Shown one piece after another: positions 10,265 through 56,476 of a stretch of DNA of 64,000 nucleotides (position 1 is its first letter; every line of letters begins with the position of its first letter). Origin of the DNA: Hyphomicrobiales bacterium (lineage in GTDB: Bacteria > Pseudomonadota > Alphaproteobacteria > Rhizobiales > Rhizobiaceae); NCBI GenBank assembly GCA_900466575.1, contig UBMP01000009.1:186001-250000 (forward strand), given 5' to 3'. The notes beneath the pieces are model-generated. The model ran no database searches. It was not told the origin of the DNA and saw nothing but the letters and a program-made list of their open reading frames with translations. A program made the translations under genes and the position numbers.

Positions 10265-10279
10265 GCTGGACCGGAAGGC

Positions 10280-13065: not shown

Positions 13066-13085
13066 TTCTTAGTTCTCCTTTGGGG

Positions 13086-15277: not shown

Positions 15278-15302
15278 GGGTATTTCCTGAAGGTGAGGGT
15301 GA

Positions 15303-16733: not shown

Positions 16734-16763
16734 GGAAGCCTCCTTGAGAAATGGGATTGCCCG

Positions 16764-21381: not shown

Positions 21382-21428
21382 GAATTCAATCTCCGCACAG
21401 CAGGGTCCGGCGTTCGATCGTTCCGATT

Positions 21429-21464
21429 TCAGGTCGGGGAGCCCGGCAAGGCCCCCCGACCTGA
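21429..21464 (-). promoter_or_regulatory. Stem-loop between solute-binding and permease genes
   Basis: TCAGGTCGGGG (21429-21439) pairs perfectly over 11 bp with CCCCGACCTGA (21454-21464), four bases beyond the binding-protein stop in the leftward transcript. No U-run follows. Such elements downstream of binding-protein genes commonly protect the 5' mRNA segment or cause partial termination, raising binding protein over permease levels. Confidence 0.55.
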
Positions 21465-21467
21465 TGC

Positions 21468-23108: not shown

Positions 23109-23205
23109 GAGGGCGCATCCTTTTGCGGAGGTGATAGACGATGCAGACCTTGCAAGCGTCATGCCAGAATATTATGTGTCTGTTTTTAAATAATAAAAAT
23201 ATAAA

Positions 23206-29218: not shown

Positions 29219-30694
29219 TTACGTGATATACCAGCCCCACCGCTCACGGTGGTTGAACGTGGTGATCTGTTTCGTTTCGAGGTAATTCGCGAGGCCCCAC
29301 CTGCCGAGCTCGCGGCCGATACCCGACTTCTTGTAGCCGCCCCAGGGCGCCTCGGTGAAAGTAGGCTGCGAGCAGTTGATCCAGACGATACCGGCCCTGA
29401 AGGCCCGCGCGATGCGCTCGCATCGGTCGAGATCGTCCGACATAACGGCAGCGGCGAGGCCGAAGGGCGAGTCATTGGCGAGGCGGATCGCCTCTGCTTC
29501 ATCCTTGAACGGGCGCACGCAGACGACCGGGCCAAAGATTTCCTCGCGCCAAACGAGGTTATCATCATCCATATCGGTCAGAATGGTCGGCTCAAGGAAA
29601 TAGCCGGCGTCCAGTCCCGCCGGACGCCTGCCGCCGTGGACGACCGTTGCGCCGGCTGCAACGCCCTTCTCGATCATGCCGAGAATCTTGGCATGTTGAG
29701 TTTCGGATATCAGCGGGCCGAGCTTGACGCCGTCCTCCATACCGTTGCCGATGCGGATCTTCGCTGCTTCCGCGACCAGCCGCTCCATCAGGCGGGGATA
29801 GAGACTTTCCTCGACCAGCACACGCGAGGTGGCCGAGCAGACCTGGCCCTGGTTCCAGAATATGCCGAACATGATCCATTCGACGGCCTTCTCGATGTCG
29901 CTGTCTGCGAACACCACGAAGGGGGACTTGCCACCGAGTTCGAGGCTGATGTTCTTGATGTCTGCCGCAGCCATCTGCATGATGCGCGAACCCGTGGGCA
30001 CGGAGCCCGTGAAGGCGAGCTTGTCGACATCGGGATGCTGTGCGAGCCGCTGGCCCGCATCGCTGCCGAAGCCGGGCACGACGTTCAGAACCCCTTCGGG
30101 AAGCCCAACCTCTTCGCAGATCGCGGCAAGCTCCAGGGCCGTCAGCGGTGTCAGTTCCGAAGGCTTGAGCACCATGGTGCAGCCGGCGGCGAGAGCTGGC
30201 GCGACCTTCCAGGCCGCCATCAGCAGCGGATAGTTCCACGGAATGATGGCACCGGCGACGCCGATCGGCTCGCGCACCACCTTGCTCTGGAAGCGGGCGT
30301 CCTGGAGCGGGATGATTTCGCCCTGATCTCCGTCCATTTCCTCAGTCAGACCGGCATAGAAGGCGAAGCAGCCGGCGGCGTCTTCCATGTCCCAGACCGC
30401 TTCGGGGAGCGGCTTGCCATTGTCCCGCACCTCGATAAGCCCGAGCCGGTCCTTGTCCGCCAGAATGCGGTCGGCAATGGCGCGGAGATAGCGGGCGCGC
30501 TCGTGCCCCGAGAGCCGAGGCCAAGGACCTTTGTCGAAGGCGCGGCGGGCTGCGGCGACGGCCTGATCGATATCGGCGGCGGTGCCAAGCGGTGCCTGTG
30601 CAAAGACCTCGCCCGTTGCGGGATCGCATACTTCGAACCGGCCCCTTGCCGCCGGGGCCGTCCACTGGCCGTTGATAAAGAGCATATCACGCAT
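29219..30694 (-). CDS. NAD(P)+-dependent aldehyde dehydrogenase (betaine-aldehyde type) 1
   Basis: 491-residue ALDH with the cofactor-binding region IIPWNYPLLMAAWKVAPALAAG, GFTGS-like AFTGSVPTGS, the general base Glu in SLELGGKSP, catalytic Cys286 in NQGQVCSATS and the closing GGYKKSGIGRELG. It would oxidise an aldehyde, possibly an aminoaldehyde, to the acid. The ATG at 30694 has GGAGGGG upstream and overlaps the glycosyltransferase stop by 8 bp. It is the last gene of a leftward operon with a GntR regulator and a glycosyltransferase, opposite the polyamine-type transporter operon that encodes a second ALDH. Confidence 0.92.
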   Translation of the reverse strand: MRDMLFINGQWTAPAARGRFEVCDPATGEVFAQAPLGTAADIDQAVAAARRAFDKGPWPRLSGHERARYLRAIADRILADKDRLGLIEVRDNGKPLPEAVWDMEDAAGCFAFYAGLTEEMDGDQGEIIPLQDARFQSKVVREPIGVAGAIIPWNYPLLMAAWKVAPALAAGCTMVLKPSELTPLTALELAAICEEVGLPEGVLNVVPGFGSDAGQRLAQHPDVDKLAFTGSVPTGSRIMQMAAADIKNISLELGGKSPFVVFADSDIEKAVEWIMFGIFWNQGQVCSATSRVLVEESLYPRLMERLVAEAAKIRIGNGMEDGVKLGPLISETQHAKILGMIEKGVAAGATVVHGGRRPAGLDAGYFLEPTILTDMDDDNLVWREEIFGPVVCVRPFKDEAEAIRLANDSPFGLAAAVMSDDLDRCERIARAFRAGIVWINCSQPTFTEAPWGGYKKSGIGRELGRWGLANYLETKQITTFNHRERWGWYIT

Positions 30695-32018
30695 TGGTTT
30701 CCCCTCCACGCCTGGATGTCGTCTTTCTCGCTGCGGCTTGGTCGGGCTTTGCCTTTGCCACCTGCAGGATCTTTTCTGCGGCAAGGTGCGCGCCCGCATG
30801 GGCCTGCATCTGTAGGGCATTGGCTTTCAGGCGCTGTTGCATGCCGGTGTCACCGAGCAGCCCTTCGATTGCGCCGGCGAGATCGGCAGGCTGCCAATCG
30901 TAGCGCGGCAGCGAGCGCCCGACGCCGGTCTCGGCGGCGCGCCGCGCATTGTCATGGCCATCCCAGCAATAGGGCATGACCAGCGACGGCACGCCAAAAT
31001 AAAGCGCCTCGCAGAAACTGTTGTTGCCGCCGTGATGGATGAACAGGCTCGCCTTCTCGACCACCGAGGATTGCGGAAACCAGCCGTCGACGAAAACATT
31101 GTCCGGCACGGCGGTGTATTCGTCGCGCCATTGGCCGACATTGACCAGGAAACGATAGGGCAGGCCGGCGAAAACGTCGATCATCTGCTTGACCAGCGAG
31201 ACGTCCATGGCGCCGAGGGAGCCGAAACTGGTGAGAACCAGCGGCCCGTCATTGTGGGCGGCGAAGACCGGGGGCTGGTATTCGCCCTCCTGCCGCACGC
31301 AGCCATTCAGATAGACGAAGCGTGCGGGATCGAGCGGTTTTCTCCTGTCGTAGCGAATGATGTCGGGCGCGAGCAGCAGGTTGAGATGCGGGGAGGGACC
31401 GAGGAAAAGCGGTGCCGGCGGCGGCTTGAGACCACATTCCGTCATCATCGCCGAGAAGCGCTTGTGCGCCGGCGCCGTCACGTGCGCGTATTCGTGCATG
31501 AAGGCGTCCCAGTCGGCGCTTTTCTCGGCGCTCAGCCCTGAGAGATAGGGTGGAACATTGGCATCGGGGATTTCGGTTTCCGCACAGGAGACGATACGCA
31601 CCCAGGGAACGCCCGCATTGGCGATGGCGGGAAACATGACCACGTTGTCGAGAACGATCGCATCGGGCTTCAGACGGTTCAGCAATTGCCGCAGGGGTTG
31701 CTCGACCGCGAGCGCCGTTTCCACGATCGCGTCCCAGGTCGGGCGCACATAGCTTTCAAGCTGTGCGTAGGGCGATTGTTTGAACGCGTCCTGGTGCCGG
31801 TTGATGAACTCGTTCCAGTCGGTCTTGCCGCCCAGTGCCTCGTCGGAGAGGTGATATTCCGGAAAGCCGTATTCTGCGAAAACGTCGCTAAAGCCGGGGT
31901 GACAGATAAACACCGGCCTTGAGCCCATCGACCTCAGTTGCTGGGCGATGCCCACGCAGTTCAGCGCGGCGCCGTAGCTGGCTTCGGGAAAGAAGGCGAT
32001 CGTCTTTTCTTGTGTCAT
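30687..32018 (-). CDS. GT1-like (UDP-glycosyltransferase fold) protein 1
   Basis: 443-residue GT-B-fold protein, clearly paralogous to the product of 37165-38451. The C-terminal domain has a PSPG-like donor site: DGWFPQSSVVEKASLFIHHGGNN, then EALYFGVPSLVMPYCWDGHDNA. The N-terminal domain starts KTIAFFPEASYGAALNCVGIAQ, where sugar-acceptor GT1 enzymes have a G-H pair holding the catalytic histidine; no His is present here. It would use a nucleotide sugar on a small acceptor, or act as a binding protein. It lies 12 bp after the GntR gene and overlaps the ALDH gene, an unusual place for a glycosyltransferase. The basic C-terminal tail is about 20 residues longer than in the paralogue. Confidence 0.82.
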   Translation of the reverse strand: MTQEKTIAFFPEASYGAALNCVGIAQQLRSMGSRPVFICHPGFSDVFAEYGFPEYHLSDEALGGKTDWNEFINRHQDAFKQSPYAQLESYVRPTWDAIVETALAVEQPLRQLLNRLKPDAIVLDNVVMFPAIANAGVPWVRIVSCAETEIPDANVPPYLSGLSAEKSADWDAFMHEYAHVTAPAHKRFSAMMTECGLKPPPAPLFLGPSPHLNLLLAPDIIRYDRRKPLDPARFVYLNGCVRQEGEYQPPVFAAHNDGPLVLTSFGSLGAMDVSLVKQMIDVFAGLPYRFLVNVGQWRDEYTAVPDNVFVDGWFPQSSVVEKASLFIHHGGNNSFCEALYFGVPSLVMPYCWDGHDNARRAAETGVGRSLPRYDWQPADLAGAIEGLLGDTGMQQRLKANALQMQAHAGAHLAAEKILQVAKAKPDQAAARKTTSRRGGETNA

Positions 32019-32030
32019 GTCGCCCCTGGC

Positions 32031-32993
32031 TCAGCGCGTTGTCATCTTGAGGGAGGGCGGAACGCCGCGACCGGCGAGACGCGGGCGCACCGCCTGCGAA
32101 AGCTGAATATGCACGCGCATCAGGTCAGCGGCCAGGGTCATCTGGCCCCGCTCGATTTGTTCGAGGATCTGGATATGTTCGGTGTTCGACTGCATCAGCC
32201 TGAACGTGCCGGGATGAACGTTGGTGGGCAGCGCGAAGCGCCTCGTGTGATGGCTGATCAGCGCCTCTGCCACGAAAGGGTTGCCGCAGCACTTGGCGAT
32301 CAGGATATGGAAATCCATATCGGTGCGCTGGAAGAGCCGGCGGTCGAAATTCGTTTCGTCCATGGCGCGGAGCGCCAGCATGGACTGGCGCAGCGACAGG
32401 ATCGCCGTCGTATCGCGCTTGAAGTCGGGCATGGTCAGCGCCAGGGGCTCCATCGCCAGGCGAAATTCGTAACTCTTGGCACCGCTGTCGGCATTGACGG
32501 TAAACTGCTTCAGGAGCCATTGCTGCCCGGCGCCGCGCTCGGCGAGGTTCTCTTCGGACAGTTTCATTAGGGAATTTTGTACCGCCAGACGCGTCACGCC
32601 ATAGCGTCGCTGCAGCGACGCGACGGTTTGTGTATCGCTGATCCGTGCCGCGGCGAGGTCGCGCAGGATTGCGGCGCGCACATCGTCCTCGGGTGTCGCA
32701 TCGCTGCTGTCATCGAGCCGGACTGCTTTGACGGGATCAATCGCGAAGCGATAGCTGCCGTCGGCGTCGCGCAGCAATATTCCCCGTTCCGCCAGCACCT
32801 GAAACGCCTTTCTGACCGGCGTTCGCGAAACATTGCAGATATTTGCGATCGCCTGTTCGGCCAGGCGTTCGCCTTCCGTCATGGCGCGCTCATTGGCCGC
32901 TTCCAGTATTTTTTGCGCCAATTCCACATGGCGGCGATTGGCTTTTTTGGGCTCTTTGAGCATGCCTGTTTCACCCTCTATGCCTTGTTTCAT
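32031..32993 (-). CDS. GntR/FCD-type regulator with two winged-helix segments
   Basis: 320-residue regulator, longer than usual. A first GntR-type winged helix (about 22-85) contains EQAIANICNVSRTPVRKAFQVLAERGIL. A second helix-turn-helix-like segment (about 95-155) contains TVASLQRRYGVTRLAVQNSLMKLSEENL and a GQQWLL wing. An FCD-like helical domain follows, with MDFHILIAKCCGN. The duplicated DNA-binding part is uncommon. It is the first gene of the leftward glycosyltransferase-ALDH operon and divergent to the polyamine-type transporter operon, so it probably controls both. ATG 32963 is an alternative start. Confidence 0.82.
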   Translation of the reverse strand: MKQGIEGETGMLKEPKKANRRHVELAQKILEAANERAMTEGERLAEQAIANICNVSRTPVRKAFQVLAERGILLRDADGSYRFAIDPVKAVRLDDSSDATPEDDVRAAILRDLAAARISDTQTVASLQRRYGVTRLAVQNSLMKLSEENLAERGAGQQWLLKQFTVNADSGAKSYEFRLAMEPLALTMPDFKRDTTAILSLRQSMLALRAMDETNFDRRLFQRTDMDFHILIAKCCGNPFVAEALISHHTRRFALPTNVHPGTFRLMQSNTEHIQILEQIERGQMTLAADLMRVHIQLSQAVRPRLAGRGVPPSLKMTTR

Positions 32994-33040
32994 AGCCTTC
33001 CCAGCCTTTGCATGGCAAGCGGCAATGGGCCGAATTTCGG

Positions 33041-33095
33041 AAAATGTACAATTTCTCTTCGAGTCTTGATTGACTTTTTTTCTGAAATAGTACCA
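33041..33095. promoter_or_regulatory. GTAC-centred sites in the divergent promoter region
   Basis: AAAATGTACAATTT (33041-33054) is nearly palindromic around TGTACA. A second GTAC (33090-33093, in GAAATAGTACCATC) follows 44 bp later, about four helical turns. TTGACT at 33070-33075 could be a -35 for the rightward operon, with the second site near its -10. The duplicated DNA-binding domain of the adjacent regulator makes paired sites plausible; binding is inferred. Confidence 0.4.
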
Positions 33096-33153
33096 TCAAT
33101 TACCAACAGACCGCAGAAGCGGCGATAGGTGGAACTGGAAAAAGGGGAGTTCA

Positions 33154-34218
33154 ATGTTTAACAGCAGGACGAATCGGCCACGTGTGGCCTCGGCAATGCA
33201 GGCTGCGGCGCTGGTCTTTGGCCTCGCCGGATCGGCATCCGCTGCCGATCTGACGATTTCGAACTGGGACGGTTACATGGCGAAGGATATCGCCGACCAG
33301 TTCAAGGCGGCGACGGGTCTGACGATCGACGTCGTCAACCACGCCACCAATGAAGAGATCATGGGCAAGCTGATGGCCAGCAAGGGCGCCGGTTATGACA
33401 TCGTCTTCGTCTCTTCGCCGTTTGCCGAGATCCTGAACAAGCAGGGACTGCTCGAACCGCTCGACCACAAGGCGATCCCGAACCTCGCCAATCTGTATCC
33501 GGAAGCGGTCAAGCTGGCCTACGATCCCGGCAATGCCTTCTCCGTTCCCTATACCTGGGGCACGACCGGCCTCTGCTATCGCACGGACCTCGTGAAGACG
33601 CCGGTCGACAGCTGGATGAACCTGTTGAAGCCAGACGAAAGCCTGCGCGGCAAGGTGACCATGCTGGCCACCGACCGCTGGCTGATGGCGGCCGGACTGC
33701 TGGCCAAGGGCTATTCGGTGAACGAGACCGATCCCGCCAAGATCGACGAAGCGAAGAAGCTGCTGATCGAGGCCAAGAAGTCGCTGCTCGCCTATGACGA
33801 CACGACTTTCTACTCCAAGCTCGTTTCCGGCGAGGCTTCGCTCGTGCATGCCTGGGATGGCTGGTGCAATTACGGCATCACCGACAACAAGAACATCACC
33901 TTCACCGTGCCGAAGGAAGGTTCCGACCTCTGGGTGGACACGATCGTCGTGTTGAAGAGCTCGGAGCACAAGGCGGATGCGATGAAGTTCATCAACTTCA
34001 TTCTCGACCCGAAGAACCACGCCTGGGCCGCGCAGAACATCCTCTACAAGGTACCCAACAAGCCTGCCATGGAAAGCCTCGATCCGGCGCTGATCAAGCA
34101 GTATCCGACCATGGGCACGCCCCCGGCTGAGCTTTCCAAGTATGAGCTTCTTCGCGACATCGGTCCCGCGATCAAGGACTACTCGCGCGCGGTCAGCGAG
34201 ATCAAGGCCGCCAACTGA
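33154..34218 (+). CDS. Polyamine-type ABC solute-binding protein (PotD/PotF-like)
   Basis: 354-residue periplasmic protein. The signal peptide (AALVFGLAGSASA) is cleaved before ADLTISNWDGYMA, the usual mature start of the spermidine/putrescine-binding family. Family blocks GYDIVFVSSPFAEILNKQGLLEPLD, VPYTWGTTGLCYRTD and LVHAWDGWC are present. The ligand is probably a cationic amine, although the family also binds opines and other organic cations. AAGGGGAG precedes the ATG. It is the first gene of a rightward operon running to 41747; stem-loops separate it from the permease genes. Confidence 0.9.
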   Translation: MFNSRTNRPRVASAMQAAALVFGLAGSASAADLTISNWDGYMAKDIADQFKAATGLTIDVVNHATNEEIMGKLMASKGAGYDIVFVSSPFAEILNKQGLLEPLDHKAIPNLANLYPEAVKLAYDPGNAFSVPYTWGTTGLCYRTDLVKTPVDSWMNLLKPDESLRGKVTMLATDRWLMAAGLLAKGYSVNETDPAKIDEAKKLLIEAKKSLLAYDDTTFYSKLVSGEASLVHAWDGWCNYGITDNKNITFTVPKEGSDLWVDTIVVLKSSEHKADAMKFINFILDPKNHAWAAQNILYKVPNKPAMESLDPALIKQYPTMGTPPAELSKYELLRDIGPAIKDYSRAVSEIKAAN

Positions 34219-34272
34219 CGGGTCCCGCCGGTCTCGAGCCTCCCAAGACGCAGCTCTCGCATACCGTCTGAA

Positions 34273-34305
34273 GCGCATCCCGCAGGTTCTGCCTGAAGGA
34301 TGCGC
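34273..34305 (+). promoter_or_regulatory. Stem-loop after the polyamine-type binding-protein gene
   Basis: GCGCATCC (34273-34280) pairs with GGATGCGC (34298-34305); an inner CAGG/CCTG pair lengthens the structure. It lies in the 194-bp gap before the permease genes and lacks a U-run. mRNA protection or partial termination behind the binding-protein gene is the likely role. Confidence 0.5.
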
Positions 34306-34357
34306 CCCGGCCCGGCTTTGCCTGCTGCAGGGACCGGCTGCTTGAGAAGAACATCAT

Positions 34358-34378
34358 CGGGGCAATCGCCTTGCCCCG
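34358..34378 (+). promoter_or_regulatory. Second stem-loop upstream of the PotB-like gene
   Basis: CGGGGCAA (34358-34365) pairs perfectly with TTGCCCCG (34371-34378) across a 5-nt loop. It sits about 35 nt before the permease ATG and may act with the preceding hairpin to set the ratio of binding protein to permease. Confidence 0.5.
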
Positions 34379-34412
34379 GTGGCGGTGTCAAACCCCTGAT
34401 GTATCGAAGCCC

Positions 34413-35282
34413 ATGTCCTACAATGCAGCCAGACCCAACCTGCTTGCCGCGCCGGCGGTGCTGTGGCTCGTCGCGTTCATGATCGTGCCCTGCGCGCTGA
34501 TCCTGCTCTTCGCCTTCTTCGAGCGCGGCGTCTTCGGCGGCATCGACTATAATCTGAACCTCGACAATTTCCGCCGGGTCGCCGACCCGCTTTATGCCGG
34601 CATCTTCCTGCGCTCGGCCCGCATCGCGCTGACGGCGGCGGGGCTTGCGATCCTCATTGCCTATCCGGCGGCCTATGCCATTACGCGCGCGCTGCCCACG
34701 CGCCAGCCCATTCTCCTGTTCTTCGCCGTCCTGCCCTTCTGGAGCAATTACCTGATCCGCACCTATGCCTGGATCGTGCTTTTGAACCGGGAGGGTCTGG
34801 TGAACAATCTCCTGCGCGGACTGGGATATCACGGCGAGCCGCTTTCGATGCTTTACACCGAGGGCGCCGTCATCACCGGCCTCGTCTACAACTATCTGCC
34901 CTTCGTGATCCTGGCGATCTATTCGACCCTTTCCAAGCTGAACCCGGAGCTGATCGAGGCCTCCCGCGATCTTGGGGCCGGACCAGTGAGGACCTTCCTC
35001 AGGGTCACGCTGCCGCTCAGCCTTTCGGGCGTTGCCGCCGGCGGGGTCTTCGTCTTCATCCTCTCGATCGGCAATTTCGTCACGCCCGCACTTCTCGGGG
35101 GCGGTCGGTTCCAGATGGTCGGCAATCTCGTCTACGACCAGTTCCTGTCCGCCAACGACTGGCCCTTCGGTGCCGCACTCGGCATGGTGCTGATCACGCT
35201 GATGATCGTGCTCCTCATGCTCCAGGCGCATATGACGGCGCGCGCCTCCGGCGAGACCAGGGGAGCAAGTGCCGATGCGTAA
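34413..35282 (+). CDS. Polyamine-type ABC permease (PotB-like)
   Basis: 289-residue inner-membrane permease with six hydrophobic segments and the family pattern RTYAWIVLLNREGLVN, then LVYNYLPFVILAIYSTLSKL. The EAA loop reads EASRDLGAGPVRTFLRVTLPLS. It makes the channel with the PotC-like subunit. The ATG at 34413 fits the family N-terminus (RPNLLAAPAVLWLVAFMIVP) better than the in-frame TTG at 34371. The end overlaps the next gene by 8 bp. Confidence 0.9.
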   Translation: MSYNAARPNLLAAPAVLWLVAFMIVPCALILLFAFFERGVFGGIDYNLNLDNFRRVADPLYAGIFLRSARIALTAAGLAILIAYPAAYAITRALPTRQPILLFFAVLPFWSNYLIRTYAWIVLLNREGLVNNLLRGLGYHGEPLSMLYTEGAVITGLVYNYLPFVILAIYSTLSKLNPELIEASRDLGAGPVRTFLRVTLPLSLSGVAAGGVFVFILSIGNFVTPALLGGGRFQMVGNLVYDQFLSANDWPFGAALGMVLITLMIVLLMLQAHMTARASGETRGASADA

Positions 35283-36054
35283 CAGCAGGATCCCCGGACG
35301 CCTCGTTCTCACCGCCGTCTTCGGCTTTCTCTATCTGCCCGTCGCAGTGCTGGTGCTGCTCTCGTTCAACGAGTCCGGCCTCCCAACCACCTGGACCGGG
35401 TTCTCGACCAAATGGTATGGCGCGCTTCTCGGTAACGGGAAGATCCTCGGCGCGGCGGGCAACACGCTCGTGGTTGCGGTTGCGGCGACAATCGTCTCCA
35501 CCATTCTCGGCACGCTGCTCGCGCTGGGCATGGAGGCGCGCGCCCGCAAATCCGGCACGCTCGAAGCGATCGCCTTCGCGCCCATGGTGATCCCGGATAT
35601 CGTTCTTGCGGTCGCCCTTCTCAGCTTCTTCTCGAAGCTCAACGTCACGCTCGGCCTGCACACGATCATCATCAGCCATGTGATCTTCGACCTGGCCTTT
35701 GTCTGCTCGGTCGTAAGGGCCCGTCTCAAGAATTTCGATTATTCCGTTGTCGAAGCCTCGCGGGATCTCGGGGCGTCGGGCTGGACGACGTTCTGGCGGA
35801 TCACGTTCCCGTCGATCATGCCCGCAGTCATCGCCGGTGCGCTGCTCGCCTTCACGCTGTCGGTGGATGAGTTCATCATCTCGTTCTTCACCGCCGGTGC
35901 GGGCCGCGGCTCCACCACCCTTCCCATGCAGATCTATTCGATGATCCGCTTCGGCATCACCCCCGAGGTCAATGCACTGGCAACCCTGATCATGGGGGTC
36001 AGTGCCACCGCCTTGCTGCTCTCCCAGTGGCTGAACCGGGAGCAACTTCCTTGA
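35275..36054 (+). CDS. Polyamine-type ABC permease (PotC-like)
   Basis: 259-residue permease with six hydrophobic segments, LPTTWTGFSTKWYGALL after the first span, and the EAA loop EASRDLGASGWTTFWRITFPS. LAFTLSVDEFIISFFTAGAG follows, a PotC hallmark. The start could be ATG 35275 or GTG 35269; AGGGGAG lies 11 or 5 nt upstream of these. It works with the PotB-like permease and the ATPase encoded next. Confidence 0.9.
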   Translation: MRNSRIPGRLVLTAVFGFLYLPVAVLVLLSFNESGLPTTWTGFSTKWYGALLGNGKILGAAGNTLVVAVAATIVSTILGTLLALGMEARARKSGTLEAIAFAPMVIPDIVLAVALLSFFSKLNVTLGLHTIIISHVIFDLAFVCSVVRARLKNFDYSVVEASRDLGASGWTTFWRITFPSIMPAVIAGALLAFTLSVDEFIISFFTAGAGRGSTTLPMQIYSMIRFGITPEVNALATLIMGVSATALLLSQWLNREQLP

Positions 36055-36062
36055 CAGGTTCC

Positions 36063-37133
36063 ATGACCAAGAAACCGCTTCTGACGATCAAGAACGTCAC
36101 CAAGAAATTCGGCCCGATCGCTGCGGTCGATGGGATTGATCTCGACATCTACGAGAACGAGTTCTTTGCGCTGCTTGGCCCGTCGGGCTGCGGCAAGACC
36201 ACGCTGCTGCGCATGATCGCGGGCTTCGAGTTTCCGACATCGGGCGCGATCCTGTTGTCCGGCCAGGATATCGCGCCGCTGCCCCCGGAAAAACGGCCGC
36301 TGAACCTGATGTTCCAGTCCTACGCGCTCTTTCCGCACATGACCGTGCGGCAGAACCTTGCCTACGGGTTGGAAGTGGAGCGGCTGGACAAGGCCGAGAT
36401 CCGCCGCCGCGTCGATGAAACGCTGGCCTCCACCGACCTTTCCGAACTCGCAGAGCGCAAGCCCGAGCAGCTTTCCGGCGGCCAGAAGCAGCGGGTGGCG
36501 CTCGCCCGGGCGTTGGTCAAGAAACCGAAGCTGCTGCTGCTCGATGAGCCGCTCGGCGCGCTCGACAAGAAGCTGCGCGAACGCATGCAGCTCGAACTCA
36601 AGCGCCTTCAGCACGAAGCCGGCATCACCTTCGTCATCGTGACGCACGATCAGGAGGAGGCGCTGGTCATGGCCGACCGCATGGCGATCCTGAAGTCGGG
36701 TCGCCTCTTGCAGGTTGGCAGTCCCGAGGAGGTCTACGAAGCACCGTCCGATCCCTTCGTGGCGAACTTCATCGGCATCATGAACTTCCTGAAGGGCAGA
36801 ATGGAGACGGATGGCGCCTTCACTGCCGAGGGTCACTCGCTGCTGCCGGGTGCGCCGGCGAAGGCCGGCCTCGCCCTGTTGGCGGTGCGCCCGGAACACG
36901 TCACGCTGTCGGCCGACGGCGAGGGACTTGCCGGCGTGATCTCCGATATCGCCTATCACGGCCTCGACCGCGTGGTGCATGTGCGCACTGCCGCGTCCGA
37001 TGGCCCCGTCCAGGTCCGAGTCAAGGCCGACGAGGGCAGGGGGCTCGATATCGGCTCCCCGGTCCGCCTCGCTTTCAATGCTGCAAAATGCCGTGTGTTT
37101 GCCGCTGAAGGCGGCCTCGCCGCCCAATCCTGA
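36063..37133 (+). CDS. Polyamine-type ABC transporter ATPase (PotA-like)
   Basis: 356-residue ATPase with Walker A GPSGCGKTT, signature LSGGQKQRVALARAL, Walker B LLLLDEPLGALD and the H-loop VTHDQEE. A C-terminal TOBE/OB regulatory domain (about 235-350) contains LLAVRPEHVTLS. It energises the importer formed with the two permeases and the binding protein. It follows the PotC-like gene by 8 bp and is followed 31 bp later by the second glycosyltransferase gene, showing that the transporter and the enzymes are co-transcribed. Confidence 0.92.
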   Translation: MTKKPLLTIKNVTKKFGPIAAVDGIDLDIYENEFFALLGPSGCGKTTLLRMIAGFEFPTSGAILLSGQDIAPLPPEKRPLNLMFQSYALFPHMTVRQNLAYGLEVERLDKAEIRRRVDETLASTDLSELAERKPEQLSGGQKQRVALARALVKKPKLLLLDEPLGALDKKLRERMQLELKRLQHEAGITFVIVTHDQEEALVMADRMAILKSGRLLQVGSPEEVYEAPSDPFVANFIGIMNFLKGRMETDGAFTAEGHSLLPGAPAKAGLALLAVRPEHVTLSADGEGLAGVISDIAYHGLDRVVHVRTAASDGPVQVRVKADEGRGLDIGSPVRLAFNAAKCRVFAAEGGLAAQS

Positions 37134-37164
37134 CAAGAACAAATCTCATCAAAAAGGGGACACC

Positions 37165-38451
37165 ATGAAAAAGACCGTCGCATTTTTCCCGGAAGCCGCC
37201 TTCGGACCTGCTCTCAACTCGGTTGGCATTGCCCAGGCCGTGAGGGCATTGGGCCACAATGTCGTCTTTCTTTCAGATCCCGGTTTCGTCTCGGTCTACG
37301 AGGGTTATGGCTTCGAGGCCCATCCCATCAATCTGTCCGAGCCCATGCCGGCGGAACAGATGGCTAAGTTCTGGGAAGACTTCATCAACGGTCACATCCC
37401 GAACTTCCGGAAGTCTCCCTATGACCAGATCGACAACTACGTGAAGGATTGCTGGCAGGCGATCGTCGAAAGCGCCAAGTGGGCCGAGAAGGATCTGCCC
37501 GGCGTGCTTGCCCGGATCAAGCCGGATCTCATCTGCGTCGACAATGTCATCCTCTTCCCGGCGATCAAGCATTTCGGCAAGCCGTGGGTACGTATCATTT
37601 CCTGCTCCGAAAACGAGATCGAGGATCCCAAGATCCCGCCGCATCTCTCCGGCTGCCGTCAGGACGACTACGAGGGCCAGCAGGCTTTCCGCGACCGTTT
37701 CAACGAAGTGATCAAGCCGATCCACGACGATTTCAACGTCTTCCTCGCCTCGACGGGCGAGGCCGCCTATCCGATCGGCCAGTTCTTCGAGGCTTCGCCC
37801 TACATGAACCTTCTGCTCTATCCGGAGCCGGTGAAGTTCAATCGTTCGCATCCGCTGCCGCCGGAACAGTTCCAGTATCTGGAAGGCTGCGTGCGCAAGG
37901 AAGCGCCTTACGAGGTGCCGACATTTGCCAAAAACAACGACAAGCCGCTCATCTACATCTCGTTCGGCTCGCTCGGCGCCGGCGATACGGATCTCCTCAA
38001 GCGGCTGATTGCCACGATCGGCGAGCTTCCCTATCGCGCGCTCGTCAATGTCGGCGATTACAAGGACACTTATCAGGATGTGCCGGGCAATGTCGTCATC
38101 GAGAGCTGGTTCCCGCAGCCTTCGGTTATCCCGCAGGTGGATGCCGTCATCCATCACGGCGGCAACAACTCGTTCACGGAATGCCTCTACTTCGGCAAGC
38201 CGGCCATCATCATGCCCTATGTTTGGGACGGTCATGACAACGCCACTCGTGTCGACGAGACCGGCCACGGCTTCAAGATGCCGCGCTACGATTGGACCAC
38301 GGAGGAACTGGCCGCCAAGCTGGACTTCATGATCAACGACCGTGCGATGCAGGAAAAGCTCGCGGCTACCTCGAGGCACATGCAGAGCCAGGATGGCCCG
38401 CAGAAGGCAGCCGGGATTCTCGATGCGTTGCTCTCCAAGAGCGGAGCCTGA
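37165..38451 (+). CDS. GT1-like (UDP-glycosyltransferase fold) protein 2
   Basis: 428-residue GT-B-fold protein paralogous to that of 30687-32018; long blocks align without gaps. The donor-site region is ESWFPQPSVIPQVDAVIHHGGNN, then ECLYFGKPAIIMPYVWDGHDNA (from about residue 314), matching the plant/bacterial GT1 signature except for the last donor-contact residues. The N-terminus KTVAFFPEAAFGPALNSVGIAQ lacks the catalytic histidine of typical GT1 enzymes. AAGGGGA precedes the ATG. Encoded between the ABC ATPase and two cupins, it probably acts on the imported compound or a derivative. Confidence 0.82.
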   Translation: MKKTVAFFPEAAFGPALNSVGIAQAVRALGHNVVFLSDPGFVSVYEGYGFEAHPINLSEPMPAEQMAKFWEDFINGHIPNFRKSPYDQIDNYVKDCWQAIVESAKWAEKDLPGVLARIKPDLICVDNVILFPAIKHFGKPWVRIISCSENEIEDPKIPPHLSGCRQDDYEGQQAFRDRFNEVIKPIHDDFNVFLASTGEAAYPIGQFFEASPYMNLLLYPEPVKFNRSHPLPPEQFQYLEGCVRKEAPYEVPTFAKNNDKPLIYISFGSLGAGDTDLLKRLIATIGELPYRALVNVGDYKDTYQDVPGNVVIESWFPQPSVIPQVDAVIHHGGNNSFTECLYFGKPAIIMPYVWDGHDNATRVDETGHGFKMPRYDWTTEELAAKLDFMINDRAMQEKLAATSRHMQSQDGPQKAAGILDALLSKSGA

Positions 38452-38460
38452 GGGCCGGCC

Positions 38461-38820
38461 ATGACCAATCTCTCGTCCTCCGCTCCGCATATCCACGGCG
38501 CCACCAGCTATGACGATCTCGTCGACTGGGGCAATCAGCCCGACATGGTGGAAGGTCAGTCGCATTCGTCGGGACGGCTGCTCCACAAGGGGCCGAACAA
38601 TCAGCCGGAAACGGGCATCTGGGTTTGCACGCCCGGCACATGGCGGCTTTCGATCCCCCGCGACGAGTTCTGCCACTTCGTGGCGGGACGCGCCGTCTAC
38701 CGCTCCGATGCGGGCGAGGAGATCGAAGTCACCCCGGGTACGGCCGTGCTCTTTCCCGCGGGCTGGACTGGCCAATGCGCCGTCCTCGAAACCATCCGCA
38801 ACATCTACATGCTTGCTTGA
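38461..38820 (+). CDS. Small cupin (DUF861-like), first of a tandem pair
   Basis: 119-residue single-domain cupin. The second half reads WRLSIPRDEFCHFVAGRAVYRS, then EIEVTPGTAVLFPAGWTGQC, the beta-barrel pattern of the DUF861/cupin_3 family, whose best-known relative is (S)-ureidoglycine aminohydrolase. The N-terminal half contains the unusual QSHSSGRLLHKGPNNQPETG segment shared with the next gene. Metal-binding His residues are fewer than in dioxygenase cupins. It starts 9 bp after the glycosyltransferase gene and is 14 bp from its sister. The activity is unknown; an isomerase, hydrolase or binding role on the pathway intermediate is inferred. Confidence 0.78.
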   Translation: MTNLSSSAPHIHGATSYDDLVDWGNQPDMVEGQSHSSGRLLHKGPNNQPETGIWVCTPGTWRLSIPRDEFCHFVAGRAVYRSDAGEEIEVTPGTAVLFPAGWTGQCAVLETIRNIYMLA

Positions 38821-38834
38821 ACAGGAATCTCGAA

Positions 38835-39182
38835 ATGACCACCACACCGCTTATGCGCAAACCGCTCGAACAGACCGATCTCGTGGACTGGGGCGTCATT
38901 CCGACCATGATCGAGGGACAGTCGCACACGTCGGGCCGTGTCATCTACAAGGGGCCGAACGGCGAGAGCGAAAGCGGCCTGTGGGTTTGCACGCCGGGCA
39001 AATGGGTCTGCCATGTGACCCGCGACGAGTTCTGCCACTTCCTCGAAGGTCGCTGCACCTATGTCCACGAAAGCGGCGAGGTGATCGAGATCACCCCCGA
39101 TACCGCAGCCTTCTTCCCCCAGGACTGGAAGGGTGTCTGCACGGTGCACGAGACCGTCAAGAAGGTCTACATGATCCGATAA
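38835..39182 (+). CDS. Small cupin (DUF861-like), second of a tandem pair
   Basis: 115-residue protein closely similar to the preceding cupin along its whole length: DLVDWG near the N-terminus, EGQSHTSGRVIYKGPNGE, SGLWVCTPGKW, RDEFCHFLEGRCTY, FFPQDWKGVCTVHETV. The pair clearly arose by tandem duplication and may form a heteromer. A GGAA element lies about 9 nt before the ATG. It lies 13 bp upstream of the kinase gene. Confidence 0.78.
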   Translation: MTTTPLMRKPLEQTDLVDWGVIPTMIEGQSHTSGRVIYKGPNGESESGLWVCTPGKWVCHVTRDEFCHFLEGRCTYVHESGEVIEITPDTAAFFPQDWKGVCTVHETVKKVYMIR

Positions 39183-39195
39183 GGGAGAGGCCATC

Positions 39196-40239
39196 ATGCC
39201 TTCAGTCATCGACGCCAGCGCGGTCATGAACCGTCATGCGTTCATTTTCCGGCAGGGGCTCGATCCGCGCGGCATCGTCGCGCTGCCCGGCGATGCCTCG
39301 GCCCGGCGCTACTACCGGCTCCGCTGGCGTGGCGTGCTTCTGATGGAGGAGAAACCGGGATCACCCGATCTCGAGCGCTTCGTCACCATAAGCCGCTATC
39401 TGACGGCCCTCGGCCTCTCGGCGCCCCGGGTGCATACGGTGGATTACGAGGCGGGTCTGGCGCTGATCGAGGATTTTGGTCAGCAGACCTTTACGCGCCT
39501 GCTTCAGGCTGGTCACGACGAAGTCCCGCTCTATGAACTCGCGGTCGATGCTCTGGTGCATCTGCACGAACGGGGCAGCGAGGAGAGACCCCATCTGCCC
39601 GGCTATGATTTCGGGCCGCTGGACGACGAGCTCTTCATGTTCACCGACTGGTATGTGCCGGAATGCGCGCCCGAGGTGGATGCCAAAGCGTTCAAGGCCG
39701 AGTTCATGGGGCTGTGGCACGAAGCGCTGCGCGAGATGGCGGCCTGCAGGGAGGTGCTGGTGCTTCGCGACTTCCATGTCGATAACCTCATGGTGATCGA
39801 AGGGCGCGAAGGCGCAGCGCGATGCGGGCTTCTCGATTTCCAGGATGGCGTCTTTGGTTCGGCCGCTTACGATCTCGTTTCGCTGACCCAGGATGCACGA
39901 CGGGACCTGACGCCGGGGCTCGAGGAGCATCTGATCGAATATTATCTCAGCCGACGCCCCGGTCTGAACAGGGAGCGTTTCATGGCGGATTACTGGCTGC
40001 TCGCCGCACACCGACACACGAAGATACTCGGCAATTTCGAGCGGCTGTCCAAGCGGGACGGCAAACATGGCTATCTCGATTTCATTCCGCGGGTGCAGGC
40101 GCAGCTTGCGCGGGCTCTTCCCAAGGCCGGCCTTGAGCAGATTACCGCGCTGATGGAGCGCGTGCTGCCCGGCTGGGCTAAGCATGTGCCTACCGTTCCC
40201 GCGACCGCAGACGAACAGAAGAAGGCGAATGTGGCATGA
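39196..40239 (+). CDS. AmgK-like phosphotransferase (APH fold small-molecule kinase)
   Basis: 347-residue kinase of the aminoglycoside-phosphotransferase fold. The nucleotide-binding N-terminal strand carries GDASARRYYR (residues 32-41), as in anomeric N-acetylmuramate/N-acetylglucosamine kinases (AmgK). The catalytic loop is LRDFHVDNLMV (base D192, N197) and the metal-binding loop is LLDFQDG (D214). AmgK phosphorylates the anomeric hydroxyl of free amino sugars; amino-alcohol kinases share the fold. Its stop overlaps the ALDH start as ATGA. With two glycosyltransferases in the locus, a role in recycling a sugar or phosphorylating an amino-alcohol is inferred. Confidence 0.8.
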   Translation: MPSVIDASAVMNRHAFIFRQGLDPRGIVALPGDASARRYYRLRWRGVLLMEEKPGSPDLERFVTISRYLTALGLSAPRVHTVDYEAGLALIEDFGQQTFTRLLQAGHDEVPLYELAVDALVHLHERGSEERPHLPGYDFGPLDDELFMFTDWYVPECAPEVDAKAFKAEFMGLWHEALREMAACREVLVLRDFHVDNLMVIEGREGAARCGLLDFQDGVFGSAAYDLVSLTQDARRDLTPGLEEHLIEYYLSRRPGLNRERFMADYWLLAAHRHTKILGNFERLSKRDGKHGYLDFIPRVQAQLARALPKAGLEQITALMERVLPGWAKHVPTVPATADEQKKANVA

Positions 40240-41747
40240 CAAGTTTCAACCTCAGCCAGCCCGTGCATTTCGTGAAAGGCGCTTTCCGGCCGCTTTCTGG
40301 CGGAAGCCAGGACGTGATCGATCCGGCGACGCTTGAAAAGGTCGGTGTCATCGGGGAGGCGAGCCCCGCCGAAATCGAAGCCGCGCTCGACATCGTGACG
40401 GCGGCGCAGCGGTCGTGGGCCCGGCTTGATGCCAAGAGCCGTTCGACCCTGCTCCACCGCGTGGCCAACAGGATCGAAGCGACCGATATGCGCGTGTGCG
40501 CTGAAATCATGTCGCGCGAAATGGGCAAGCCCTATCCGGAAGCGATTGGTGAGGTGGCGAACTGCGCCGGCGCGTTCCGCTATTTTGCCGAGCTTGCCCG
40601 CGATGATGGCGGCAAGGTCGCGGGCACGACGCAGGCCGGGTCCTTCCAGCATGCGCGTTACGCCCCGCTCGGCGTGTCCGTGCACATCATGCCCTTCAAT
40701 TTTCCGATCCTGCTGATGTGCTGGACGGTGGCCGCGTCGCTCGCTTCCGGCAATGGCTGCGTGATCAAGCCGGCGCAGGCAACAACGCTCTCCACACTGC
40801 TCTTCATGGAGGTCTTCGCCGATCTCCCGGCGGGGCTGATTGCCTGCCTGCCGGGCGGTGTCGAGGTCGCGCAGGCCCTCATCCACTCGAAAAAGACGCA
40901 TGCCATCGCCTTCACCGGCTCTGTGGCGGCTGGCAAGGCGGTGGCGATCGCCGCCGCTGCCGAAATGAAGCCGGCGGTGATCGAGGCGGGCGGGTCCGAT
41001 CCGATGATCATCTCGGCGCACGCACCGCTCGATGTTGCAGCAGCCGGCGCGGTCACGGCGGCCTTTCACATGACCGGCCAGGTCTGCACGTCGGCGGAAC
41101 GGTTCTATGTGGTCGATGCCATCCATGATGCTTTCGTCGAGAAATTCGCGGAAGAGACCAGGCGTCTGCGCGTCGGAAACGGCCTCGGCAAGCACGAGAT
41201 CGGCCCGCTCGTCTCGAAAGCCGCGCGTGACAAGGTGATCCGCCTGGTGGAGGACGCCAAGGCCAAGGGCGCCGTTGCTATCACGGGCGGGCGCATCCCA
41301 GAGAACCAGCCCGTCGGCTGGTTCTACGAGCCGACGATCCTCACCGGCTGCACGCCGGACATGGATATCCTGAAGGAAGAATGCTTCGGCCCCGTTGCCG
41401 CCATCTGCCGTGTCGCCGATTTCGAGGAGGCGATCGACCGCGCAAACGACAGCGAATTCGGCCTTGGTGCCTCGATCTTCACGACATCGCTCGAAGAGGC
41501 AATGGAGGCAGCCGAAAGGCTGGAAGCGGGCATGGTCTGGGTGAACAATCCCCTGATCGACAACGACGCCTTGCCCTTCGGCGGCTGGAAGAAGTCCGGG
41601 ATCGGCCGCGAGCTGTCGCGTCTCGGTCTCGATACGTTCCGACGCTCCAAGATGGTCATCATCGACCACAAGCCGGAGCGCCAAGGCTGGTGGTACCCCT
41701 ATCCGGACGACTGGTTCTACGAAACCGGTGGACGCAAGCACGCATAA
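40236..41747 (+). CDS. NAD(P)+-dependent aldehyde dehydrogenase 2
   Basis: 503-residue ALDH. The cofactor region is HIMPFNFPILLMCWTVAASLASG, followed by AFTGSVAAGKAV. The general base Glu is in IEAGGSDPMI (the usual ELGGKSP is altered), the catalytic Cys284 is in TGQVCTSAER, and GGWKKSGIGRELS closes the fold. The altered Glu motif places it in the succinate-semialdehyde/lactaldehyde-like branch rather than the betaine-aldehyde branch of the first ALDH. It is the last gene of the rightward operon. Confidence 0.9.
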   Translation: MTSFNLSQPVHFVKGAFRPLSGGSQDVIDPATLEKVGVIGEASPAEIEAALDIVTAAQRSWARLDAKSRSTLLHRVANRIEATDMRVCAEIMSREMGKPYPEAIGEVANCAGAFRYFAELARDDGGKVAGTTQAGSFQHARYAPLGVSVHIMPFNFPILLMCWTVAASLASGNGCVIKPAQATTLSTLLFMEVFADLPAGLIACLPGGVEVAQALIHSKKTHAIAFTGSVAAGKAVAIAAAAEMKPAVIEAGGSDPMIISAHAPLDVAAAGAVTAAFHMTGQVCTSAERFYVVDAIHDAFVEKFAEETRRLRVGNGLGKHEIGPLVSKAARDKVIRLVEDAKAKGAVAITGGRIPENQPVGWFYEPTILTGCTPDMDILKEECFGPVAAICRVADFEEAIDRANDSEFGLGASIFTTSLEEAMEAAERLEAGMVWVNNPLIDNDALPFGGWKKSGIGRELSRLGLDTFRRSKMVIIDHKPERQGWWYPYPDDWFYETGGRKHA

Positions 41748-41935
41748 CCACGGGTTGGTTGAATGCTGCCACCATAGCGACGGGATGCGACAGCGGCAGG
41801 TTCCGGACAGCATATGCAGGCGGCTGACCCGCGTTCCGTCACCAACTTTAAGGGGAGCGAACGACGATGGATATTTTGGTCTGTTTTGTCGGCTGACGCT
41901 ATCAGTCCCCTATGCAGAATCTAAGGAACAAGAGC

Positions 41936-43327
41936 ATGCCAACGACACGCCAGTCTCTCTCCGGCACGGTGCGGGCGCCATACTGGTGGGATACCGTCGG
42001 ATCACGGGAAAGCTGCCCGCCCTTATCCGGGGACGTTCGCTGTGACTTGGCCATCGTTGGCGGCGGCTTTACCGGTCTCTGGACAGCGCTTGAGGCACGC
42101 CGCAGGCGTCCCCAGGACCGTATTGTCGTCATTGAGGCCGGAAGCTGCGGCAACGCCGCGTCTGGTCGCAACGGCGGGTTCTGCGCACCTTCCATTTCAC
42201 ACGGGGTAGGAAATGCGCTGAAGCGTTGGCCCACCGAAGCAGAAAAGCTCATACGTCTTGGACGGTCGAACCTGGATATGCTGGAAACCGACCTATCCGC
42301 CTTCGGGATGGAGGTTGAGTTTGAACGAAAGGGGAAGCTTACCGTCGCTGAGCAGCCCTGGCAGGTGGAAGGACTTAGGTCGCAGGCTGAGAACTATCGA
42401 CGCTTCGGAATAGACTGCGAGCATCTCGAGGGAGAAGCGCTGAAACGCAGATTGGACTCTCCCGTTTATGTCGCGGGGCTCTACGAACCCAACTATGCGA
42501 CGCTTAACCCAGCAAAGATGGTGGCCGAGCTGCGGAGGGTTGCGTTGTCGCAGTTCGTCGTCATCTATGAAAACACGCCCGTGACGCGATTTATGAATGG
42601 CAGTGGCGGGCTTGAACTTGTAACTTCGGGCGGCGTCGTCCGGGCTGATCGAGTAGTGCTTGCTACAAATGCTGCCCCGCCACTTCTGGCACGTCTTCGA
42701 CTGGCGACGATACCCATATTCGACTACGCACTGGTGACCCGTCCGCTGACCCCGGAGGAGATGAGGTCCATCGGCTGGACCGACAGGCACAGCATTGCCG
42801 ATTGCGGCAATCAGTTCCACTATTTCAGGAAAACCGCTGATAACAGGATCCTCTGGGGCGGCTATGACGCGATCTATCACTTCGGATCACGCCGGAACGA
42901 AGAGGACCTTCGCGAGAGTTCAAGCCTGGACCGTCTGGCGATCAACTTTGCAAGAGCCTTTCCTAGCCTGGCGGACGTATCCTTCACGCATGCGTGGGGC
43001 GGCATTATCGACACATCTGCCCGAACTACTTTTTTTGCCGGAACTGCACACGCCGGCCGTACAGCCTACGCGATGGGCTTCACGGGACAGGGCGTATCGG
43101 CAAGCCGCTTTGCTGCACTGACGATGCTCGACCTTCTTGATGACGTGGAGACCGAGCGTACGAGACTTGCCATGGTTCGTACCGCCCCATTCCCCTTTCC
43201 GCCGGAACCTTTTCGTTGGCTTGGCGTCCGCTGGGCGCAGCGCGGTCTGGCCGACGAAGACCGAACCGGCCGCCGGTCGCTGCTCAACAAGACGCTGGAC
43301 GTGTTGGGCGTCGGCTTTGACTCATGA
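41936..43327 (+). CDS. FAD-dependent amine/amino-acid oxidoreductase (DadA/PuuB-like)
   Basis: 463-residue flavoprotein with the dinucleotide-binding motif VGGGFTGLWTALEA (about 45-58) and the second motif GNAASGRNGGFCAP, typical of PuuB/YgaF-like amine oxidoreductases. HAWGGIIDTSARTT and the closing AMGFTGQGVSASR that contacts FAD are also present. It would oxidise an amine or N-substituted amino acid to an aldehyde or imine. The ATG at 41936 has AAGGAA 8 nt upstream; ATG 41912 is possible. Its codon use is visibly less GC-rich than that of the preceding operon, hinting at a different origin. It overlaps the third cupin region. Confidence 0.87.
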   Translation: MPTTRQSLSGTVRAPYWWDTVGSRESCPPLSGDVRCDLAIVGGGFTGLWTALEARRRRPQDRIVVIEAGSCGNAASGRNGGFCAPSISHGVGNALKRWPTEAEKLIRLGRSNLDMLETDLSAFGMEVEFERKGKLTVAEQPWQVEGLRSQAENYRRFGIDCEHLEGEALKRRLDSPVYVAGLYEPNYATLNPAKMVAELRRVALSQFVVIYENTPVTRFMNGSGGLELVTSGGVVRADRVVLATNAAPPLLARLRLATIPIFDYALVTRPLTPEEMRSIGWTDRHSIADCGNQFHYFRKTADNRILWGGYDAIYHFGSRRNEEDLRESSSLDRLAINFARAFPSLADVSFTHAWGGIIDTSARTTFFAGTAHAGRTAYAMGFTGQGVSASRFAALTMLDLLDDVETERTRLAMVRTAPFPFPPEPFRWLGVRWAQRGLADEDRTGRRSLLNKTLDVLGVGFDS

Positions 43328-43338
43328 GAGGATTCCGG

Positions 43339-43704
43339 ATGTCCGCCTGCCCCAGTCATGTCATCGCATTCACCGCTGGCTCTATCGACGCCAAAGAGAC
43401 AATCACATCGGATCCTGCGGTCGTAGACCGACCATACAAGGCAACGAGTTGGCGCTTCTTCGAGAAGCCCGGGACAGGTCATCTGTCTGGAATATGGGAA
43501 GCCGAACCGCATTTGGAGCGGGTCCACTGCGACTATGATGAAATGTGCCATATCCTTGAGGGCGTCGTGAGACTGACCGACGCTAACGGGCAATCCCAAA
43601 CCTTTCGCGCAGGCGAAACCTTTGTCGTCGCATCCGGCTTCCGCGGAACGTGGGAAAACCTTACTGCTGTCAAGAAGGTTTTCTTCATCTTGAAGGACCG
43701 CTAA
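43339..43704 (+). CDS. Small cupin (DUF861 family)
   Basis: 121-residue cupin with VHCDYDEMCHILEGVVRLTDANG, then AGETFVVASGFRGTWEN, the DUF861 barrel with E/C/H residues at the usual metal positions. Cupins of this type are often encoded next to amine-oxidising flavoproteins. The ATG at 43339 has GAGGA 6 nt upstream. It is distinct from the tandem pair at 38461-39182, being closer to the canonical family. Confidence 0.85.
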   Translation: MSACPSHVIAFTAGSIDAKETITSDPAVVDRPYKATSWRFFEKPGTGHLSGIWEAEPHLERVHCDYDEMCHILEGVVRLTDANGQSQTFRAGETFVVASGFRGTWENLTAVKKVFFILKDR

Positions 43705-43933
43705 GTTTCGGTACGCCGCACGCCCTCATGCCAAAGGGATTCCCGGTCCGTTTACCTGGATTCGTCAGCACTGATCAGGCTCTGAGAATTCGAATTTTCG
43801 TTCCACAGACATTGCGGGTCGCTACGCAACCCTGATGGGCTCTCAGGAGCATTCAGTGTCGAAATGCGATCCGATGTGGTGGCGAAACCGTTTTCGGGCC
43901 TTGGCGCTTTCCGCCGGATGCTTTAAGCGTCGG

Positions 43934-43954
43934 CGCCACTGTGAAACAGTGGCG
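43934..43954 (+). promoter_or_regulatory. Perfect hairpin abutting the ribosome-binding site of the M20 gene
   Basis: CGCCACTGT (43934-43942), loop GAA, ACAGTGGCG (43946-43954): a perfect 9-bp stem. Its last base starts the GGAG Shine-Dalgarno (43954-43957), and the ATG is at 43967. There is no U-run. It could reduce or gate ribosome access, or mark a processing site behind the cupin gene. Confidence 0.5.
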
Positions 43955-43966
43955 GAGACTAGAGTG

Positions 43967-56464: not shown

Positions 56465-56476
56465 CGCGAACGCTCC

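Follow-up and report, generated by a model that had tools for sequence, protein, structure and literature searches.

The locus at positions 29219..43704 of the window (the whole stretch analyzed, 64,000 nt of contig UBMP01000009.1 of a Hyphomicrobiales bacterium, positions 186,001 to 250,000) raises the question of why a Pot-type importer should be encoded together with glycosyltransferases (GTs), small cupins, a kinase, and aldehyde dehydrogenases (ALDHs). The presence, linkage, and sequence features of these genes were observed directly and are described below. The answer that we tentatively prefer, with slightly less than even confidence, is that the cluster catabolizes a small cationic amine via transient glycosylation, the sugar donor being recycled. 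The imported cation would be the species that is glycosylated, and the glycoside would be the species that is oxidized. In detail, it is possible, if doubtful, that a His-less, Glu-bearing GT1 enzyme adds a temporary sugar to the amine, that a cupin lacking the metal motif removes it, and that a dedicated anomeric kinase (or a ROK kinase plus a mutase) recycles the donor, in a scheme shared by bacteria and haloarchaea. To our knowledge, no family covers the whole cluster, and no published description of the GT-cupin cluster or pathway was found among the matches listed from the open-licence literature without preprints.

An earlier note on this DNA had read the locus as a glycosylation-based amine pathway built around a polyamine-type importer. 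All genes that it named are present, their positions and names hold, and the family matches are far beyond chance. The genes form two divergent units. The rightward unit, PotDBCA-GTa-CUP1-CUP2-KIN-ALDH2, encodes the importer, one GT, two cupins, a kinase, and an ALDH (ALDH2; 40236..41747, forward strand; Aldedh 4.3e-141). The leftward unit, GntR-GTb-ALDH1, is headed by a GntR/FCD regulator divergent from the importer (32031..32993, reverse strand; FCD 5.1e-16, GntR 2.7e-12) and encodes a second GT and a second ALDH (ALDH1; 29219..30820, reverse strand; Aldedh 1.7e-176). GTa and ALDH2 are core genes. Met43 (about 30694), immediately before the point where the family matches of ALDH1 set in (residues 43-53), is the probable start of this protein, and its overlap with GTb would therefore be a few bases rather than 134.

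The cluster is sporadic across genomes, and its gene order is largely fixed. GTa was present in 14 of 151 sampled genomes including its own (73-89% identity in the other 13), with GTb approximately 6 kb from GTa in 10 of the 14. With its own genome again counted, GTa was found in 13/385 genomes of the class sample, 22/337 of the order sample, and 8/398 of the phylum sample. Within a genus from another class of the phylum, 17 of 25 species carried GTa, and the whole core was present in all three loci read. Two haloarchaeal plasmids (Natrialba and Natronorubrum) encode a 60-61% identical GTa with a cupin and an ALDH, and with a Pot-type importer near; other Pot-type importers were found near GTa in haloarchaea and Acidocella. 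Joint occurrence in other genomes, which the earlier note had put forward as a test, was therefore observed for the core across genera and in two classes, as well as for the haloarchaeal GT-cupin-ALDH sets.

Member frequencies were obtained from two sets of loci. The 80 named loci were the best 80 of 398 GTa relatives in a scan of named genomes, with distant relatives under-sampled. The 80 full-flank loci, whose flanks extend 4.5 kb or more downstream and 6.5 kb or more upstream, came from 106 loci with a GTa frame, that is, from 107 chosen loci (the window, the 80 named loci, and 26 others) after one (L104) was left out; its contig matched, yet in no single frame did the alignment to GTa exceed 350 residues, possibly because of a frameshift or an assembly error. 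Two duplicates (L034 of L120 and L064 of L109) were dropped from the GTa tree; L064 and L109 are both counted among the full-flank loci. The named loci contained PotA in 75 cases, PotC in 74, PotB in 73, PotD in 72, and the GntR regulator in 69, together with CUP2 (77), ALDH2 (74), GTb (69), CUP1 (68), ALDH1 (41), a DAO-family gene (14), and KIN (6). All full-flank loci had a cupin, and most had ALDH2 (74), PotD (70), and GTb (66); a DAO-family gene was present in 13, and minor members were an aldose 1-epimerase (1) and a ROK kinase (2). ALDH1 and KIN had been taken for standing members of the system, but ALDH1 at 60% identity or more occurred in only 30 of the full-flank loci and KIN in 10.

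The smallest conserved combination consists of GTa and one cupin. In three loci (L128, L133, and L138, approximately 10001-12171; two from Hyphomicrobium, one unclassified), the pair was present without importer, GTb, or ALDH2 orthologue, and in L128 and L138 it was followed by a small open reading frame (ORF) that by eye resembles DUF427. In L074 (10001-14583), GTa-CUP1-CUP2-KIN-ALDH2 was present without Pot genes or GTb across 10 kb upstream; these five genes may be mobile as a unit, unless this metagenome contig is chimeric.

GTa (37165..38451, forward strand) and GTb (30687..32018, reverse strand) are paralogues, as had been noted before, with 47% identity. Both match EryCIII-like_C (1.2e-18 each) and score above the cut-off of the UDPGT model. 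The best-scoring solved relatives of the GT profile were the spider-mite enzymes UGT203A2 (210 bits) and UGT202A2 (117 bits), followed by YjiC (78 bits). The best Foldseek match of the GTa model was 7lvy (E 6.6e-28, TM 0.76, root-mean-square deviation 8.4), for a model with a mean pLDDT of only 68. Both proteins belong to the GT1 type, with a predicted GT-B fold and a predicted C-terminal UDP-sugar domain shared with UGT203A2/202A2, OleD, and YjiC. In GT1 enzymes, the N-terminal His of a His-Asp pair is the catalytic base, and UGT203A2 shows FGH at the position of this expected His. In contrast, residues 8-22 were free of His in every row of an alignment of 219 (126 GTa-like and 93 GTb-like, some genes being included more than once with different ends). 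Glu10 was kept in 218 of the rows (one gap), and Asn18, Asp126, Asp355, and Asn359 were kept in all of them, Asp126 being the candidate partner of the missing His. Gly356 was found in 217/219 rows vs. Gln in UGT203A2, which makes the donor motif DG rather than DQ. Judged by these residues, GTa and GTb are a distinct GT1 subfamily, changed at the expected catalytic and donor positions, and a His-less, Glu-bearing active site would fit an N-acceptor or another ready nucleophile. Among the matches listed, the spider-mite UGTs were closer to GTa than any bacterial UGT of solved structure. Mite UGT genes reportedly came from bacteria by horizontal gene transfer, and bacterial genes of the GTa family could help to trace their donor.

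The constant partners of GTa, CUP1 (38461..38820; Cupin_3 7.6e-15) and CUP2 (38835..39182; Cupin_3 1.2e-15), both on the forward strand, are small EutQ-like cupins without HxH. No His was observed among the positions kept in at least 95% of about 100 rows; the kept motifs were ExGxWxCTPG and DExC, with two Cys. Among solved structures, only the uncharacterized protein 3bcw matched CUP2 with a convincing E-value (1e-8).

KIN (39196..40239, forward strand; APH 6.6e-21) is an APH-fold kinase, probably for a sugar, with 3csv as a solved relative. Its scores with the NCBIfam AmgK models were 237.4 bits (cut-off 500) and 117.8 bits (cut-off 550), so that it shares the fold of AmgK, the MurNAc/GlcNAc anomeric kinase, and stays below the cut-offs for that enzyme. 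Orthologues of KIN (E ≤ 1e-70 in the order sample, 51% identity or more; in the second genus, at least 74% identity with the KIN of L172; weaker matches, such as one at 44% in G104, were counted as general AmgK-like genes) occurred in the samples only together with GTa. In the order sample of 337 genomes, KIN was present in 4/22 GTa genomes vs. 0/315 others (Fisher test, P = 1.4e-5, ignoring descent), and in the second genus in 17/17 GTa species vs. 0/8 others (P = 9e-7, ignoring descent), with coordinates close to GTa. KIN without GTa was found in none of the sampled genomes. Twelve distinct loci with KIN were read, and in each of them the gene is flanked by CUP2 and ALDH2. An AmgK-like match of some kind was present in 142 of 151 relatives, and most genomes with KIN and GTa carry a separate AmgK-like gene elsewhere; KIN therefore looks like a special copy. 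KIN was rejected as a universal member, being absent from most loci.

Both haloarchaeal loci have, in place of KIN, a ROK kinase and a phosphohexomutase that follow GT-cupin-ALDH. The Natrialba proteins scored 158.8 bits with a glucokinase model (cut-off 500) and 287.7 bits with archaeal GlmM (cut-off 439), respectively, and the Natronorubrum proteins are 74% and 82% identical to them. These two enzymes are expected if free sugar rejoins the donor pool, and therefore support sugar salvage. In addition, the aldose 1-epimerase lies beside the cluster in the sister loci L120 and L121, both of which have KIN (L099 has a 28% match at a distance of 10 kb), which suggests a fit with the need of an anomer-specific kinase after an inverting transfer. 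Handling of free sugar is thus indicated in three ways, by KIN linkage, by the haloarchaeal kinase and mutase, and by the epimerase; each of the latter two may go back to a single event. As to the sugar, the likeness to AmgK suggests GlcNAc or MurNAc, the ROK kinase suggests glucose, and the mutase suggests a GlmM-type sugar.

The importer genes, all on the forward strand, encode a PotD-type binding protein with an altered ligand site (33154..34218; SBP_bac_8 1.1e-32), a PotB-type permease (34413..35282, in an ORF that opens at 34371; BPD_transp_1 2e-15), a PotC-type permease (35269..36054; BPD_transp_1 4.9e-17), and a PotA-type ATPase (36027..37133; ABC_tran 3.3e-37; TIGR01187 potA, 360.8 bits, above the cut-off of 355.6). 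PotA, B, C, and D genes are therefore present together, with the gene set and family matches of the PotABCD polyamine importer, and PotD matches the spermidine/putrescine-binding chain 8y5h (7.7e-42). The ligand site was compared in 85 PotD rows picked by similarity to the window protein (other Pot-type importers were not among them), using the site numbers and ligand-binding roles of the E. coli PotD residues. W34, Y37, S83, W229, D257, and Y293 were kept in all rows and W255 in 84. Among the acidic residues that hold polyamine nitrogens, D257 was kept and E36, D168, and E171 were lost, being G, T, and W in 85/85 rows. Position 35 was Asp in 68 rows and Ala in 15, and Y85 was Pro in 81. The ligand is probably not a common polyamine; one with a single amine and a neutral part may fit the site, where Asp35 could restore one contact. 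The earlier label of a polyamine-type importer is therefore correct for the family and not for the ligand, several polyamine contacts being changed. No compound was named by the PotD site, the recurring neighbors, or the haloarchaeal loci. Histidine or histamine was considered as the substrate (a HutH-like gene lies near GTa in L215, and Natrialba has a hut operon) and dropped, these genes being on the opposite strand or in a separate operon.

Additional modules accompany the core in a clade-specific manner. A saccharopine-dehydrogenase-like (SDH) gene was found beside ALDH2 in 42 of the named loci; its nearest solved structure is carboxyspermidine dehydrogenase (1.5e-15). A glutamine-synthetase-like (GS-like) gene close to that of Mesorhizobium (at least 61% identity) was found in 17 of the named loci, 13 of which also had a DAO-family gene. 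Among the full-flank loci, 34 had SDH, 16 had GS (at least 50% identity, within 9 kb), and none had both (Fisher test, P = 4e-5, ignoring descent); L088 has SDH plus a different GS-like gene (37%) about 10 kb away. Presence and absence alternate 10 times for SDH and 3 times for GS on the GTa tree, and the split between them follows clades in part. This distribution suggests that the two modules are alternative ways to finish the same substrate. Neither was found in the window cluster. The window's genome contained no close saccharopine-type match (best, 27%), and its GS-like genes were a 47% match on another contig and a 34% match in the window (10283-11683), the latter gene ending 17.5 kb left of the cluster.

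The pathway that we propose would begin with import of a small organic cation by PotDBCA, to which the family and the binding-site residues point. GTa would then move a sugar from a UDP-sugar onto the amine or its reaction product, and GTb would perhaps glycosylate at another stage. ALDH2, an ALDH by family, would oxidize the aldehyde of the glycosylated compound to the acid. The cupins would rearrange the sugar or release it, which is the weakest step. KIN, or the haloarchaeal ROK kinase with the phosphohexomutase, is linked to the cluster and could convert the freed sugar into sugar-1-phosphate and, from this, new UDP-sugar. The remaining amino acid would be opened by the clade-specific modules, of which one comprises the SDH-like enzyme and in most cases ALDH1, and the other a gamma-glutamyl-ligase-like enzyme and frequently a flavoprotein. 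We infer the direction of the GT reaction, its acceptor, its sugar, and the releasing enzyme. That the second modules are of an amine type (GS-like, some of them with DAO, or carboxyspermidine-dehydrogenase-like) was counted in favor of this pathway. If it is true, glycosylation is a third strategy of amine protection beside gamma-glutamylation and acylation, the widespread GT-cupin pair acquires a function, and a GT1 subfamily dispenses with the base on which catalysis usually relies. Since the cluster is conserved, a few purified proteins would suffice for a direct test.

Several observations weigh against transient glycosylation, the strongest being the first three given here and the absence of KIN from most loci. 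A glycosidase was not found in the cluster, and the metal-binding HxH is missing from the cupins, which leaves deglycosylation without an established enzyme. The core also lacks an oxidase for amines or alcohols that would act before ALDH2. In six of the full-flank loci, GTa is accompanied by a cupin but by none of importer, GTb, ALDH2, and KIN, and such loci have no explanation in an amine pathway. Three acidic contacts of PotD (E36, D168, and E171) are replaced throughout. The salvage genes are also weak points: KIN scores below the AmgK cut-offs, it switches 8 times between presence and absence on the GTa tree, whose resolution is poor (43 weak inner branches among 101), and it is missing from most loci, where salvage would therefore fall to unlinked genes. 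The haloarchaeal kinase and mutase score below the cut-offs of their models and come from two related plasmids, and the epimerase represents one event.

The missing glycosidase is explained if the importer takes up a ready-made cationic glycoside, the GTs work in reverse to move the sugar to UDP, and ALDH2 and other enzymes degrade the freed aglycone. GT1 reactions can be reversible, no glycosidase would have to be present, two GTs could remove two sugars, and the changed polyamine contacts of the importer are in agreement. We nevertheless consider reverse transfer unlikely: it yields UDP-sugar, and a free-sugar kinase would therefore not be needed, whereas some of the genomes do have KIN or a ROK kinase linked to the cluster; moreover, Pot-family importers as a rule carry small cations. 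The glycoside could instead be an end product, either a conjugate by which a reactive amine or aldehyde is detoxified or a solute that serves storage or protection, with ALDH2 and the clade modules as a side branch. The nearest solved structures are UGT203A2 and UGT202A2, spider-mite UGTs of a kind that serves detoxification, the GTs match macrolide GT models weakly, and the six loci with GTa and a cupin that lack importer and ALDH2 would be accounted for. However, the frequencies of PotD (70/80) and ALDH2 (74/80) in the full-flank loci, together with the sugar kinases present at some loci, point to substrate use and sugar release, and make this explanation distinctly unlikely.

Two further explanations have far lower probability than either of these. 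Ordinary polyamine uptake and breakdown, next to GTs and a kinase that serve envelope polysaccharide synthesis or cell-wall recycling and are adjacent by chance, appears very improbable. The GT1 and AmgK families do occur in wall and natural-product metabolism, and some AmgK-like match exists in 142/151 relatives; but the gene order is fixed over large distances, KIN without GTa was not found in the samples, no polysaccharide-type gene was among the cluster genes tested, and the haloarchaea that have the core lack murein. A drug-inactivation cluster, composed of a macrolide-type GT and an aminoglycoside-type phosphotransferase, is the least probable reading and scarcely credible. Although both families include antibiotic-inactivating members, the GTs scored 74 and 61 bits with macro_glyco_Mgt (cut-off 700), the kinase is related to AmgK, and a dedicated importer would be superfluous for detoxification.

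Transient glycosylation, the reading that we prefer, resembles the Puu pathway of gamma-glutamylated putrescine catabolism, which consists of import, protection, oxidation by a flavoprotein and an ALDH, and deprotection, with a glycosyl group in place of the gamma-glutamyl group; a GS-like gene also lies beside GTa in 16 of the full-flank loci. The difference is that the constant candidate for protection in the GT cluster is a UDP-sugar GT. PuuA, PuuB, PuuC, and PuuD do not occur together here: tests of the cluster genes revealed neither a GS-like nor a PuuD-like one. The closest published idea that we met is the cryptic, activating glucosylation in nicotine biosynthesis, in which glucose-processing enzymes act and the end product carries no glucose (PMC13184244). 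It differs in being plant biosynthesis, not microbial catabolism, and in its enzymes.

Downstream of ALDH2 lie, in this order and all on the forward strand, a DAO-family flavoprotein (41912..43327; DAO 6.2e-58), a third EutQ-like cupin (CUP3; 43324..43704; Cupin_3 9.3e-17), and an M20 family hydrolase (43835..45130; Peptidase_M20 1.5e-29). The first two are optional neighbors, and the membership of the third is uncertain. The flavoprotein, previously regarded as part of the system, was rejected as a core member: of four other genomes with an orthologue, only one (G107) had it beside the cluster, and other clades had only distant DAO-family genes (26-30% identical) near GTa. CUP3 fared similarly, with weak matches (21-33%) in other loci that were mostly the tandem cupins themselves. 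The hydrolase had one weak match (26%) in the named loci, 9 kb from GTa. Of the earlier interpretation as a whole, the core linkage and the tie between kinase and GTa have stood, whereas the flavoprotein, the third cupin, ALDH1, and a universal KIN have not.

Another arrangement was observed in L219 (930-19226), which contains two GTs of the GTa family, two OYE-type flavoenzymes, an acyl-CoA-dehydrogenase-like gene, and a cupin 33% like CUP3. Within the window, the GS-like gene mentioned above (Gln-synt_C 2.3e-96) belongs to a group at 10283-13895 on the reverse strand, together with a class-III aminotransferase (1.9e-37) and an ORF that by eye looks like GntR; these genes make up an amine-type cluster of their own, at a distance of about 15 kb to the left of the GT cluster. 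The reverse strand also contains, at 54803-58549 and 14564-23162, ORFs that by eye resemble hydantoinase HyuA/HyuB, amidase, hydantoin racemase, and peptide-type ABC genes, which suggests that the window is a catabolic region for nitrogen compounds.

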